DNA of 51,877 bases from positions 1 through 51,877 of the forward strand of contig JAKASX010000014.1 in NCBI GenBank assembly GCA_021818865.1, written 5' to 3'. Source of the DNA: Acidobacteriota bacterium. GTDB lineage: Bacteria; Acidobacteriota; Terriglobia; Acidiferrales; UBA7541. Below are positions 5,757-10,175 of the stretch, piece by piece (position 1 is the stretch's first letter; every line of letters starts with the position of its first letter). The notes beneath the pieces are model-generated. The model had not been told where the DNA came from. It was given only the letters and a program-made list of their open reading frames with translations, and ran no database searches. A program made the translations under genes and the position numbers.

Positions 5757-6296
5757 ATGGCCATGGATACCACGCTGCCGGCGCCGGTGCTCGCTTCGCT
5801 GCGGCAGACGCCTGAACTTCTCGAAAAGCTTCTCGATGCCGCCACCGAAGAAGCGATGATCTGGAAACCCTCCGCTGATCGCTGGTCCATCTCCGAAGTG
5901 CTCGGCCATCTGAACCACGTCGAACGTGAACTTTACCGCAAACGCATCCAGCAGTTTCTCGACGAAGAAGATCCGCTCCTCGAAGCCTACGATCAAAACG
6001 ACTGTTACGAGCGCGGCGAATACGCCCTGCCGCTGGGCGCGACCGCCCGCGCTCAGCTCAAGCGATTCGCCGGCGAGCGTTGGCATTCGCTCGCACTGCT
6101 CTACCAGATGCCTCCCGACGCCGAGCGGCTGCCGGCGCGCCACGCCCGCTTCGGCCCGCTCACCCTCGAAACGATGCTCAATGAATGGGCGTATCACGAC
6201 CTCGGCCATATCCGCCAAATCGCCGAGCTTTACCGCGCCTATGCGTTTTATCCGGAAATGGGGCCTTACCGGAGCTACTACACGCCGCGGCCGTGA
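5757..6296 (+). CDS. DinB-family (DinB_2) protein
   Basis: This 179-residue protein is a four-helix-bundle member of the DinB/YfiT-like superfamily, many of which are metal- or thiol-dependent enzymes. The putative metal ligands are visible as histidines in LGHLNHVE (H51, H54) and YHDLGHIRQ (H147, H151). WSISEVLGHL is a common signature of the family. GGAGGGGGAAACC precedes ATG 5757; an in-frame ATG at 5763 is a less likely start. The downstream gene is almost contiguous, so the two may be co-transcribed. The substrate is unknown. Confidence 0.85.
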   Translation: MAMDTTLPAPVLASLRQTPELLEKLLDAATEEAMIWKPSADRWSISEVLGHLNHVERELYRKRIQQFLDEEDPLLEAYDQNDCYERGEYALPLGATARAQLKRFAGERWHSLALLYQMPPDAERLPARHARFGPLTLETMLNEWAYHDLGHIRQIAELYRAYAFYPEMGPYRSYYTPRP

Positions 6297-6313
6297 CGCC
6301 GGGCGAGGCTTCC

Positions 6314-6796
6314 ATGCACGAATCCGCGCGACGCATCCTCGAATCTTTTGACCGCCTTGGGCATTCGCGGCTTACCGCAGCCGATTTTGCTGACGCTTGC
6401 GGTTTGCGCGGTGGGGCCAATGAGGCCAATGGCCATGCCTCGGCCGAAGCGGCGATTCGCGACCTTGTCGCTGCGGGCGCCCTACGAGAAATCGCCGGGG
6501 GCTACGAGCGCACCGAATTCGGGCGCTTGGAAGCTGCTGACCGTCTCACCCTGACCCTGCTCGGTCGCCGAGGTTGCCATCTCTGCCAAGAGGTTCTCGT
6601 TTGGCTCGAACCGCTCGTCGCACGGCTCGGCGTAACCCTCCGCAAGGTGGATGTGGATACGGACGGGGTGCTGCGCGAGCGCTACGGAAATGAGGTCCCG
6701 GTGCTTTTCCTGGGTGCAAGGGAACTGGCTCGGAACCATTTTGAGGCGCCGCTCGTGGAGAAATCGGTGAAAATGGCGCGGCAAGCAAGCCGCTAG
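6314..6796 (+). CDS. glutaredoxin-like (DUF836-type) protein with N-terminal helical domain
   Basis: This 160-residue protein has a glutaredoxin-like C-terminal half (residues 78-160) with the redox motif C88-H-L-C91 in RRGCHLCQ. The partner strand reads VDVDTDGVLRERYGNEVPVLFLG, which is typical of the small DUF836/glutaredoxin-like thioredoxin-fold family. The first 75 residues resemble a winged helix (AIRDLVAAGALREIAGGYERTEFGR). That fusion is unusual. ATG 6314 follows GGCGAGG. A GTG at 6293 that overlaps the upstream TGA would add seven residues and is a possible alternative. Its place just ahead of the cysteine operon hints at thiol metabolism, but this is positional inference. Confidence 0.75.
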   Translation: MHESARRILESFDRLGHSRLTAADFADACGLRGGANEANGHASAEAAIRDLVAAGALREIAGGYERTEFGRLEAADRLTLTLLGRRGCHLCQEVLVWLEPLVARLGVTLRKVDVDTDGVLRERYGNEVPVLFLGARELARNHFEAPLVEKSVKMARQASR

Positions 6797-6892: not shown

Positions 6893-6920
6893 GACTACCG
6901 GACCTTTGTGGTCGTATATT
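6893..6920 (+). promoter_or_regulatory. candidate promoter/operator of the cysteine operon
   Basis: GACC (6901-6904) and GGTC (6910-6913) flank TTTGT, forming a short dyad. TATATT at 6915-6920 is a plausible -10 just downstream. A GGAC..GTCC-like dyad next to a -10 resembles sites of Rrf2-type regulators of cysteine or iron-sulfur genes, but this is a resemblance only. Transcription from this -10 would start near 6926, so translation should begin downstream of that point. Confidence 0.4.
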
Positions 6921-6950
6921 GGAGTCTTGAGAAGTATAGGTGTAAACACC

Positions 6951-7919
6951 TTGACCGCAGCGCACAGCGAAGTGTTCGCCTCCGGGCCCCTGCCGCTCGC
7001 CGAGCCGGCTGTTTCCGTGCTTGATCGGATTGGCCGAACGCCGCTTTTGCGGCTGGAGCGGGTGAGCCGCGAATTTCCCGGCGTGGAAATTTCTGCCAAA
7101 GCGGAATGGTTCAATCCCGGCGGGTCGGTGAAGGATCGCGCGGCGCTGGCGATGATTCAGGAAGGCGAGCGGAGCGGGGAACTGGTCCCGGGAAAAACGA
7201 TTCTCGACGCCACCAGCGGCAATACCGGCATTGCCTACGCGATGATCGGGGTGGTGAAGGGTTACGGTGTGAAGCTCTGCATTCCCGAAAGCGCTTCCGC
7301 AGAGCGCAAGCGCATCCTGGCAGCTTACGGCGCCGAACTCATTTGGACCCCGGCGGGCGACGGATCGGACGGGGCAATCCAGCGCGCCCGTGAAATTTAC
7401 GCGGCCGATCCCGGCCGCTATTTCTATCCCGATCAATACAACAATCCCGCCAATTGGCAGGCGCATTATCATTCGACCGGCGTGGAAATCTGGCATCAGA
7501 CGGGCGGCCGGCTGACCCATTTCGTCGCCGGTTTGGGGACCACAGGCACCTTCGTCGGCACGGCGCGCCGCCTAACGGAATATTCGCCGGCGATTCGCCT
7601 GGTGAGCGTGCAGCCAGCGACCCCCTTCCACGGTCTCGAAGGATTGAAGCATCTGCCCTCGGCGATCGTGCCGGGAATTTACGATCCGGCTCTGGCCGAT
7701 GAGAATCTGTGGATCGAGACCGAGACCGCTTACGAGCAGGTGCGCCGGCTGGCGCGCGAGGAAGGCTTGCTGGTAGGGTTGAGTTCCGGGGCCGCGCTGG
7801 CTGCGTGCCTGGAAATCGCCCGCAAACTTCCGCCGGGTGAGCGCGCTCGCATCGTCACCATATTTCCGGATTCGGGCGATCGCTATCTGGGCGACCGTCT
7901 GTGGGAAGAGAACATCTGA
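6951..7919 (+). CDS. cysM: cysteine synthase, CysM type
   Basis: This is a PLP-dependent beta-replacement enzyme of 322 residues, close to the usual length. The Schiff-base lysine is K61 in NPGGSVKDR, the phosphate or substrate loop SGNTG is at 89-93, and a glycine-rich GLGTTGTFVG loop and a late GLSSGAAL complete the fold. Its neighbours are a JAMM protease, a CysO-like carrier and a MoeZ-like activator. So it most likely uses O-phosphoserine and a protein thiocarboxylate, as the Mycobacterium CysM does. By eye, the Mycobacterium substrate Arg in its ALRN segment aligns with a Lys here (GLKH). The start is uncertain. TTG 6951 is preferred because it lies downstream of the predicted -10; TTG 6906 and GTG 6972 are alternatives. 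Confidence 0.9.
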   Translation: MTAAHSEVFASGPLPLAEPAVSVLDRIGRTPLLRLERVSREFPGVEISAKAEWFNPGGSVKDRAALAMIQEGERSGELVPGKTILDATSGNTGIAYAMIGVVKGYGVKLCIPESASAERKRILAAYGAELIWTPAGDGSDGAIQRAREIYAADPGRYFYPDQYNNPANWQAHYHSTGVEIWHQTGGRLTHFVAGLGTTGTFVGTARRLTEYSPAIRLVSVQPATPFHGLEGLKHLPSAIVPGIYDPALADENLWIETETAYEQVRRLAREEGLLVGLSSGAALAACLEIARKLPPGERARIVTIFPDSGDRYLGDRLWEENI

Positions 7920-8353
7920 TGCTGAAGCTGAGCGAGGAACTCGCCGAACGGATTCGCGCGCACGCGGCGCAAAGCTACCCTTACGAATGTTGCGGAGCGA
8001 TGCTCGGAACCGAAGCGGCGGGCGCGCGCCTGGTGAAGGAACTGGTGATGCTCGATAATCAGCGCGAGGATTCACCGCGCAACCGATTCCTGGTGCATCC
8101 CGCGGACGTGCTGCGCGTCGAACGAGCGGCGCAAGCGCAGGGGCTCGATCTCGTCGGTTGGTACCATTCGCATCCGGACGCGCCGCCGCGACCCAGCGAA
8201 TTCGATCGCGAGCACGCCTGGCCCTGGTACAGCTACGTGATTGTCGCTGTCGAGGCGGGAGTGCCGCGCCGCATGGCCAGCTGGCGGCTGCTCGATGACC
8301 GTTCGCGTTTCGACGATGAGGAGATCGGGTCCGATTTGATGACGGTGGGCTAG
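7919..8353 (+). CDS. mec: JAMM/MPN+ metalloprotease (Mec-like)
   Basis: This zinc peptidase of 144 residues carries a complete JAMM motif: H83-S-H85, then S93 and D96 (HSHP..PSEFD), plus the upstream catalytic glutamate E23 in YECCGAMLG. In Mycobacterium the homolog cleaves CysO-cysteine to release cysteine. In related systems JAMM proteases trim masked ThiS-like carriers. The ATG overlaps the cysM stop (TGATG) and GGGAAGAG lies 8 bases upstream, so coupling to cysM is clear. Because the neighbouring carrier ends in GG-RSC, this enzyme may do both jobs: first unmask the carrier, then release the cysteine adduct. The second role follows the known family; the first is inferred. Confidence 0.9.
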   Translation: MLKLSEELAERIRAHAAQSYPYECCGAMLGTEAAGARLVKELVMLDNQREDSPRNRFLVHPADVLRVERAAQAQGLDLVGWYHSHPDAPPRPSEFDREHAWPWYSYVIVAVEAGVPRRMASWRLLDDRSRFDDEEIGSDLMTVG

Positions 8354-8418: not shown

Positions 8419-8703
8419 ATGGCAGTGAAAGTGATGATTCCCACCCCGCTCCGGCCGTACGCGGGCCGTCAGGCGAGCGTTAGCGTGGAAGCCCAAACGG
8501 TCGGCGAGGCGCTCGATGCGCTCACCGGCCAGTTCGCCGATTTGCGCCGCCATCTCTACGCCGATGGCGGACGGTTACGCAGCTTTGTGAACGTCTACCT
8601 GAACCAGGAAGACGTCCGTAACTTGCAAAAAGATCAAACTCCGCTTCGCGACGGCGATACGATCTCGATCGTTCCTTCGATCGCCGGCGGGCGATCCTGC
8701 TAG
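8419..8703 (+). CDS. cysO: CysO-like sulfur-carrier protein with C-terminal RSC tail
   Basis: This 94-residue ubiquitin-fold sulfur carrier belongs to the ThiS/MoaD family. Features shared with Mycobacterium CysO are IPTPLRPYAG near the start, FVNVYLNQEDVR at 56-67 and DGDTISIVPSIAGG at 78-91. A functional carrier must end in a free GG, but here G90-G91 is followed by R92-S93-C94 before the TAG stop. So the gene product appears to be a pro-form that needs proteolysis before adenylation. GAGGAGA precedes ATG 8419. It lies 65 bases after the JAMM gene and 11 bases before moeZ, within one operon. Confidence 0.92.
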   Translation: MAVKVMIPTPLRPYAGRQASVSVEAQTVGEALDALTGQFADLRRHLYADGGRLRSFVNVYLNQEDVRNLQKDQTPLRDGDTISIVPSIAGGRSC

Positions 8704-8714
8704 GAGAAATTCAC

Positions 8715-9905
8715 ATGCCTGAAACGATCGAAAAAACAAAACACGCTGCTCCCGCCGCACCCGTATCGCTTTCCAAAGAGGAAGTTCTGCGCTACAGCCG
8801 GCATTTGATCATGCCCGAAGTAGGCATGGAAGGTCAGCTGAAGCTGAAGCAGGCCAAAGTGCTGCTCGTGGGCTCGGGCGGGCTTGGCGCGCCGCTCGCG
8901 CTCTACCTCGCCGCCGCCGGCGTCGGCAGGCTGGGCCTGGTGGATTTCGACCGCGTGGATTTCACGAATTTGCAGCGCCAGGTGCTTTTTGGCACCTCCG
9001 ACGTCGGCAAACCGAAGCTCGAAGCCGCCAAGCGCCGCTTGCAGGATTTGAACCCGGAAATTCAGATCGACGCCTTCGAAACCAAACTGACCAGCGAAAA
9101 CGCTCTCGATCTCCTGCGCCCCTACGACATCGTCGTGGACGGCACCGACAATTTTCCCACTCGCTACCTGGTGAACGATGCGGCTGTTCTGCTTGGCAAG
9201 CCAAACGTCTACGGCTCGATTTTCCGCTTCGAGGGTCAGTTGAGCGTTTTCGGCCTCGCCGACGGCCCTTGCTATCGCTGCCTCTATCCCGAGCCCCCTC
9301 CGCCGGGTCTCGTGCCGTCGTGCGCCGAGGGCGGCGTGCTCGGCGTGCTGCCGGGAATCGTCGGTTCGCTGCAGGCGATGGAAGTTCTGAAGCTGATCCT
9401 CGGCAACGGCGACCCGATGGCCGGCCGCTTGCTCCTCTTCGATGCGCTCGAAATGACGTTTCGCGAGCTGCGCTTGCGCAAAAATCCCGATTGCCCCCTC
9501 TGCGGCTCGAATCGTACGATTCACCAGCTCATCGACTATTACGAATTCTGCGGCGTGCGCGGCGAAGAAGCGCCTCCGCCATCGGTCGAGGTCCCCCAGA
9601 TGGGTCCGCGCGAACTGGCCGAACGTCTGAAGCGCGGCGAAAACATCTTCGTGCTCGACGTACGCGAGCCGCACGAATATCAGATTTGTAATCTGGGCGG
9701 CATCCTGATTCCGCTCGGCGATCTGCCGCGCCGCGTCCAGGAAATCGATTCCGCCGCGCCGGTGGTGGTCCATTGCCGCAGCGGCGCGCGATCGGCACAG
9801 GCCGTGGATTTTCTGCGCAAAGCGGGATTCCGCCGCGTGTGGAACCTGCGCGGTGGTATTCTAGCGTGGTCGGATGAAGTGGATTCTTCCGTCCCGAAAT
9901 ACTAA
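8715..9905 (+). CDS. moeZ: MoeZ-like adenylyltransferase/sulfurtransferase
   Basis: This two-domain enzyme of 396 residues activates a carrier-protein C-terminus with ATP and converts it to a thiocarboxylate. The E1-like MoeB/ThiF domain (about 23-270) has the nucleotide loop GSGGLGAP at 53-60, D145 in DGTDN, four zinc cysteines (C186, C189, C260, C263) and the candidate acyl-transfer cysteine C203 in PSCAEGG. The rhodanese domain (about 297-396) has its persulfide cysteine C354 in VVHCRSGARS. The RBS overlaps the cysO stop (TAGGAG). Position and order assign it to CysO; a side role in molybdopterin synthesis is possible. Confidence 0.93.
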   Translation: MPETIEKTKHAAPAAPVSLSKEEVLRYSRHLIMPEVGMEGQLKLKQAKVLLVGSGGLGAPLALYLAAAGVGRLGLVDFDRVDFTNLQRQVLFGTSDVGKPKLEAAKRRLQDLNPEIQIDAFETKLTSENALDLLRPYDIVVDGTDNFPTRYLVNDAAVLLGKPNVYGSIFRFEGQLSVFGLADGPCYRCLYPEPPPPGLVPSCAEGGVLGVLPGIVGSLQAMEVLKLILGNGDPMAGRLLLFDALEMTFRELRLRKNPDCPLCGSNRTIHQLIDYYEFCGVRGEEAPPPSVEVPQMGPRELAERLKRGENIFVLDVREPHEYQICNLGGILIPLGDLPRRVQEIDSAAPVVVHCRSGARSAQAVDFLRKAGFRRVWNLRGGILAWSDEVDSSVPKY

Positions 9906-9950: not shown

Positions 9951-10175
9951 ATGGCAGCGACCCGCATCACGGTCCGTCCGAACGGACCTTACCGCGTCGA
10001 AGGCGAAATCGAGCTGGTGGACGGGCAGGGCAAACCGTTTGGTCTAGGGGGACGAACGGCGATTTCCCTGTGCCGTTGCGGCCATTCGAACAACAAGCCG
10101 TTTTGCGACGGCAGCCACGCGAAAGCCGGTTTCCAGAGCACCGTCGAAGCGCGGGATTTGCCGCCTCAGTCCTGA
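9951..10175 (+). CDS. CDGSH iron-sulfur domain protein
   Basis: This small protein of 74 residues has the full CDGSH pattern C-x-C-x2-S-x3-P-x-C-D-G-S-H (CRCGHSNNKPFCDGSH). It ligates a 2Fe-2S cluster with three cysteines and one histidine, as in the mitoNEET superfamily. Bacterial members are linked to redox or iron-sulfur handling. GAGGGGGGAGAAC precedes the ATG. It lies 45 bases after moeZ on the same strand and may belong to the same transcript, which would fit sulfur metabolism. Confidence 0.9.
   Translation: MAATRITVRPNGPYRVEGEIELVDGQGKPFGLGGRTAISLCRCGHSNNKPFCDGSHAKAGFQSTVEARDLPPQS

Follow-up and report, generated by a model that had tools for sequence, protein, structure and literature searches.

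A capped CysO-type sulfur carrier, probably trimmed by the JAMM protease of its own operon, in an Acidobacteriota bacterium

A CysO-type sulfur carrier for cysteine synthesis in a soil bacterium of the Acidobacteriota appears to be made in a capped form, with extra residues behind its Gly-Gly, and to be trimmed by the JAMM protease of its own operon; from sequence comparison we put the probability of this reading at about 0.8. The carrier gene lies in a stretch of 51,877 nucleotides, the whole of which is referred to below as the window. An earlier note on this DNA had proposed a masked pro-carrier with the operon JAMM as its trimming enzyme, and comparison with relatives strongly supports that proposal: tails and carrier-E1 fusions go with linkage to a JAMM gene, and carriers of other types in this family nearly always stop at Gly-Gly. 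There are known examples of capped carriers that JAMM proteases cut; the fusions and the Cys-codon tails of relatives look like a new variation on them, and the window carrier would itself be a further, well-supported member of the established kind.

Results

The operon and the C-terminal end of its carrier

The four genes of the operon lie on one strand in the order cysM, JAMM, carrier and E1/rhodanese. Their positions in the window, with those of the carrier's C-terminal features, are as follows.

6906 to 7919, + strand: cysteine synthase (CysK/CysM family), which opens the operon and whose true start may lie downstream of 6906 (Pfam PALP, 5e-70)
7919 to 8353, + strand: JAMM/M67 metalloprotease of 144 amino acids, the proposed unmasking enzyme (Prok-JAB, 6e-28)
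8419 to 8703, + strand: CysO-like sulfur carrier (ThiS/MoaD family) of 94 amino acids, ending GG-RSC (Pfam ThiS; CysO structure match)
8686 to 8691, + strand: Gly-Gly codons, with the predicted cleavage point after 8691 (sequence; AGG invariant in 17 carrier-E1 fusions)
8692 to 8700, + strand: tail Arg-Ser-Cys, predicted to be removable (sequence; unconserved among relatives)
8701 to 8706, + strand: stop codon TAG of the carrier, which forms part of the Shine-Dalgarno-like TAGGAG ahead of the E1 gene (sequence)
8715 to 9905, + strand: MoeZ-type E1 adenylyltransferase with a rhodanese domain (Pfam ThiF, 2.5e-86; Rhodanese, 1.8e-15)

The JAMM gene had been placed two positions upstream of the carrier gene; it is in fact the immediate upstream neighbour, and it is cysM that lies two upstream. 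The cysteine synthase matched the TIGR01138 cysM model at 2e-110, which is below that model's cut-off, and its best solved matches were M. tuberculosis CysK1 and E. coli CysM, with M. tuberculosis CysM ranking lower. Flanking the operon are a gene for a CDGSH iron-sulfur protein on the 3' side (window positions 9951-10172) and a glutaredoxin-like (DUF836) gene on the 5' side (6185-6793).

The Pfam ThiS match of the carrier (3e-15) spans residues 5-91 and ends exactly at Gly-Gly, and the best solved relative of the protein is M. tuberculosis CysO (3dwg_C, 3e-16). Its C-terminus reads ...PSIAGG-RSC-stop, window positions 8680-8703 being ATC GCC GGC GGG CGA TCC TGC TAG (I-A-G-G-R-S-C-stop); residues past Gly-Gly are likewise present in JAMM-processed capped carriers of the QbsE/PtmS2 type. 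The ATG of the E1 gene is at 8715, leaving a spacer of 11 nt behind the carrier stop, and as that stop overlaps the TAGGAG of the E1 gene, the length of the tail is linked to where the next gene begins.

The description of a gene that runs past Gly-Gly into Arg-Ser-Cys before its TAG is thus borne out by the sequence, and a tail is found in the nearest sister genome as well, where the carrier is 96% identical and the equivalent site reads GG-RSR-TAG-GAG. A sequencing or assembly slip at the stop was ruled out, because the sister keeps its tail (RSR) at the same place. Within the genus of the window, the tails are RSC (window), RSR (sister) and SRD (L005), and in L004 and L006 the carrier is fused to the E1. 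The earlier note's suggestion that the terminal cysteine of the tail aids recognition does not survive this comparison, and a conserved tail or end cysteine as a recognition signal was rejected for the window on the same variation.

The JAMM protease

The catalytic set of the JAMM protein (E23, H83, H85, S93 and D96) is invariant in 46 JAMM homologs. The structure model of the window protein has a pLDDT of 92, and Foldseek matched it to PfJAMM1-SAMP2, CsRpn11-Ub (archaeal Rpn11) and a bacterial Ubl-deubiquitinase. A profile made from the loci served to find JAMM genes in relatives, and 181 of its 183 matches keep the HxH-x7-S-x2-D motif. The genome of the window holds a second JAMM gene (C74:6123-6461, L125), between ftsZ and a serine hydroxymethyltransferase gene, so that the assignment to the operon JAMM is not exclusive there. 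Most genomes of another genus with tailed carriers (g2) hold a single Prok-JAB match, at the place of the operon.

Residues behind Gly-Gly in homologous carriers

C-termini were read for about 210 distinct carriers, among which the JAMM-linked set comprised 140 after removal of duplicates. Residues follow Gly-Gly in 139 of these 140 distinct JAMM-linked Acidobacteriota carriers, the sole exception (L027) having its stop directly behind Gly-Gly; homologs ending exactly at Gly-Gly, which the earlier note had named as the refuting case, are therefore confined to 1/140 of the JAMM-linked set. Its expectation of a conserved GG-plus-tail in acidobacterial homologs held in part: Gly-Gly is conserved and the tail near-universal, but the sequence of the tail is unconserved. 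Nothing but Gly-Gly is kept at this end of the protein, and some relatives carry a tail of one residue. The one exception, present at L027 (genome G087) and L048, offers a natural contrast. The E1 gene already starts within the tail codons at L082, L105, L109 and L110 (GG-CGATGCTAA, with a longer out-of-frame overlap in L110), and the residues of these tails are thus set by the overlap of the genes.

Carriers without a nearby JAMM gene were divided, 30 ending at Gly-Gly and 40 being tailed (Fisher p 7e-16 for JAMM linkage against tail, not corrected for relatedness). On the carrier tree, linkage and tails each fall into clusters, with only 1 independent pair on well-supported branches, and the association is partly phylogenetic; the caveat of relatedness is a serious one. 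A single paralog clade accounts for 33 of the 40 unlinked tailed carriers. Its neighbours are aspartokinase in the genus of the window and threonine synthase at two other loci inspected, and a cysteine directly follows Gly-Gly in 13 of 34 paralogs. The paralog in the genome of the window (C49:3650-3922, L002) lies beside aspartokinase and ends GG-CPAAE; its counterpart in genus g2 lies beside threonine synthase (two loci inspected) and has mixed tails, many of them just GG-C. Five genomes have the paralog and no strong JAMM match: the paralog ends at Gly-Gly in G004, G022 (which has a weak match) and G031, and is tailed in G003 (63% complete) and G013, both of which have no JAMM match.

As controls, other carriers of the same bacterial family were read in the same way, and Gly-Gly was the C-terminus of ThiS in 28 of 30 proteins and of BNR-linked MoaD-like carriers in 29 of 30; the window's own genome has GGG-stop at the end of ThiS and GG-stop at the end of its BNR-linked carrier. 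Stop-codon drift is therefore confined to some carriers and does not characterise these genomes as such. Outside the phylum, eight plasmid-borne carriers were compared. A JAMM gene nearby and a tail occur together in Aliarcobacter (GG-I) and Burkholderia (GG-RS); Tsukamurella and Nonomuraea have a JAMM gene nearby and no tail, and Arthrobacter, Mycetohabitans, Rhizobium and Sinorhizobium have neither. Tails seem to require a JAMM protease, but JAMM genes also occur beside untailed carriers.

Fusions of the carrier to its activating enzyme

At about 40 distinct loci the reading frame runs through Gly-Gly into the E1, giving a single ThiS-ThiF-rhodanese chain with its domains intact and about 390 residues beyond the carrier. 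Two of the five species in the genus of the window have this fused form (L004/L033 and L006/L035). Between Gly-Gly and the E1 motif lies a linker of 16-39 residues in which Ala, Glu and Pro are frequent. In only 1 of 38 fusions does the linker contain an ATG, so that the E1 mostly lacks an ATG to start from; GTG and TTG are present in many of the linkers. All 17 aligned fusion proteins keep Ala-Gly-Gly, and the residues that follow vary. In a structure model of the L033 fusion, confidence is low at the junction (87-100), as if it were disordered, which at an overall pLDDT of 72 and with 17 sequences is only suggestive. On the E1 tree the fused or free state changes 12 times, and at least 7 of these changes are forced by well-supported branches.

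As the E1 family acts on a free C-terminal glycine, a fused carrier must be cut, and these in-frame fusions are the strongest indirect support for the predicted cleavage after Gly-Gly in this carrier family. A search of the open-access literature, which leaves most subscription papers outside it, returned no description of an E1-rhodanese protein joined to a CysO-type carrier, nor of the tail pattern, and the joining of carrier and E1 seems to be a new variant of capped carriers. The genome of the window also encodes a MoaD-MoaE fusion (C68:12098-12328, L114) with an internal GG-SG, which by precedent would need cutting.

Cysteine-rich tails in Terriglobia relatives

Where more than 150 nt separate Gly-Gly from the E1 motif (46 loci, the long-gap set), the tails are rich in cysteine, with 78 of 343 residues (22.7%). 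Dinucleotide shuffles gave 2.8%, with a maximum of 4.3%, and the 51 tails with a short gap held 3.6%. Examples are CCSC, CCCC, CCCCCCL, TSC, CCR and RC[IV]CS. Cysteine tails go with long gaps at p 4e-10, a value not corrected for phylogeny; 8 independent pairs on well-supported branches gave a median p of 0.25. TGT makes up 54 of 85 cysteine codons in the tails and 61 of 853 in the E1 genes, where TGC supplies 792 of 853; the lower GC content of noncoding sequence may account for some of this preference.

One Terriglobia clade has a conserved stem of 7 bp immediately behind the tail RC[IV]CS and its TAG, and a single compensatory change occurs in it; this stem-loop (GCCTGGG...CCCGGGC) directly follows the carrier stop in L050, L058, L065, L066, L073, L076, L091, L097 and relatives. 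Rfam returned no match in 14 related loci, and none in the four stem-loop loci that were searched. At L096, the spacer between carrier and E1 holds, after a one-residue tail, a separate Cys-rich frame ending NCSCQLCCCPACCCR, which resembles a poly-Cys leader peptide. Compared with shuffles, the carrier-E1 spacers had no overall excess of RNA structure (mean z -0.23), no intrinsic terminator was called in the spacer of L217, the one example scanned, and short Cys-dense frames upstream of cysM occurred at 3 of 73 loci, about the shuffled rate.

Discussion

We propose that the JAMM protease would cut the window carrier after Gly-Gly and release RSC, upon which the MoeZ-type enzyme would adenylate and thiocarboxylate the freed glycine and the cysteine synthase would build cysteine on the carrier from the thiocarboxylate. 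The same JAMM may also cut the carrier-cysteine amide (GG-Cys), chemically the same kind of cut. If everything behind Gly-Gly is removed, selection would keep Gly-Gly and not the stop codon, and the stop would drift; in the many relatives without a stop, carrier and E1 would form one chain and be freed by the same cut. The 40 tailed carriers with no JAMM gene nearby are assumed to be trimmed in trans. JAMM-linked carriers that end at Gly-Gly (M. tuberculosis CysO, Tsukamurella, Nonomuraea and L027) suggest that release of cysteine may be the main reason for keeping the JAMM gene.

Trimming could instead be the work of a different protease, the operon JAMM serving only to release cysteine from the adduct as Mec does in Mycobacterium. 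A JAMM gene adjoins an untailed CysO in Actinobacteria, the enzyme that cuts MoaX in mycobacteria has no assigned identity (PMC4326299), and the tailed paralogs sit away from any JAMM gene. A general trimming enzyme, however, would let ThiS and the BNR-linked carriers drift as well, and these are untailed in the same family while tails and E1 fusions track the JAMM-linked group; we consider this explanation unlikely. The tail might also be a neutral artefact, borne by a carrier that works untrimmed or chewed back by non-specific carboxypeptidases, as its lack of conservation, down to one residue in some relatives, would allow. This is the least credible of the explanations weighed here: adenylation targets the C-terminal glycine carboxylate in MoaD and CysO (PMC3227635, PMC4326299), and a carboxypeptidase could not free the carrier from about 390 fused residues without destroying the E1.

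A further reading, compatible with trimming, makes the tail of the window a regulatory leader whose Cys codons stall ribosomes and control the E1 under cysteine shortage. It draws on the relatives, namely on the cysteine excess over shuffles in long-gap tails, the TGT preference and the RC[IV]CS-stop with its conserved stem, and on the poly-Cys short frames that act as cysteine-responsive attenuators in mycobacteria (Canestrari 2020, as cited in PMC9094748). The window itself, though, has one Cys codon, an 11-nt spacer and RSR in its sister, and for its own tail we judge the reading very improbable. Even in the relatives, the spacers are no more structured than shuffles, the 8 independent pairs are too few to decide the matter, the scanned spacer has no terminator and 5 of the 7 stem pairs never vary. 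Since the JAMM would discard everything behind Gly-Gly, the 3' end of the carrier gene would be free for other uses, and we tentatively suggest, at somewhat short of an even chance, that in several Terriglobia lineages the tail became a cysteine-sensing leader for the E1 while others made a carrier-E1 polyprotein at the same junction. Alternatively, a cysteine behind Gly-Gly may mimic the carrier-cysteine adduct cut by a Mec-type JAMM, which the paralogs fit better.

If the window carrier is indeed a capped form trimmed by its JAMM, capping of the sulfur carrier of a cysteine pathway would be the rule in a large bacterial phylum. If the suggestion for the Terriglobia relatives holds as well, one proteolytic step would make room for a regulator built into the gene or for a sulfur-relay unit in one chain. 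Should the Cys-codon tails prove regulatory, a disposable protein tail would serve as the leader peptide of the next gene, an arrangement that is to our knowledge new. The carrier-E1 fusions resemble precursors of ubiquitin-type modifiers, which need a cut at Gly-Gly. The window (GG-RSC), its sister (GG-RSR), the fusions of the same genus and the one GG-stop exception form a natural contrast set, which makes it directly testable whether one JAMM serves both carrier activation and product release.

Comparison with known systems

HcyS and HcyD of Wolinella are a capped sulfur carrier and its JAMM protease. QbsE/QbsD of thioquinolobactin synthesis and PtmS1/2/3 likewise combine a small ThiS-fold carrier, one to a few residues past Gly-Gly, an adjoining JAMM and a MoeZ-type E1. 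In Streptomyces platensis, PtmS2 (GG-MV, beside the JAMM PtmS1) and PtmS3 (GG-C) are capped carriers, with QbsD as biochemical precedent, and deletion of the JAMM or E1 gene in Streptomyces abolishes formation of thiocarboxylic acid (PMC6006322). The parallel drawn in the earlier note with masked carriers trimmed by JAMM proteases, such as QbsE, is well founded in these cases. The window carrier differs from them in its setting, an Acidobacteriota cysteine-synthase operon, and in its tail, RSC, and its relatives add E1 fusions and Cys-rich tails.

Other likenesses concern a carrier fused in frame or extended. DRJAMM of Deinococcus cuts MoaD-MoaE (PMC8832034), and M. tuberculosis MoaX is cut between Gly82 and Ser83 (PMC4326299). 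In these fusions too the carrier is joined in frame to a partner and activity needs a cut after Gly-Gly, but the partner there is MoaE, on the sulfur acceptor side, and here the activating E1. In Caldiarchaeum, CsRpn11 and CsJAMM process pro-ubiquitin and SAMP precursors, and CsRpn11 trims pro-ubiquitin precisely after Gly-Gly (PMC6043591); a JAMM again removes a C-terminal extension, but in a protein-modifier system and not in a cysteine operon.

The operon itself corresponds to class 4c of Iyer, Burroughs and Aravind 2006 (ThiS/MoaD, E1-rhodanese, JAB and cysteine synthase), for which Solibacter usitatus of the Acidobacteria is listed; the portion of that survey used here also predicts that JAB frees fused ThiS/MoaD domains and describes, for some ThiF proteins (Campylobacter), a fused Ub-like domain that differs from ThiS, and it holds neither tails past Gly-Gly nor a carrier-E1-rhodanese fusion (PMC1779556). 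The CysO-CysM-Mec-MoeZ pathway of Mycobacterium has the same four gene functions and, in M. tuberculosis CysO, the best solved match to the window carrier. The cysteine synthase of the window is not specially close to M. tuberculosis CysM, and, as the earlier note rightly held, Mycobacterium CysO has no tail: the M. tuberculosis chain ends exactly at Gly-Gly, whereas the window carrier is capped.
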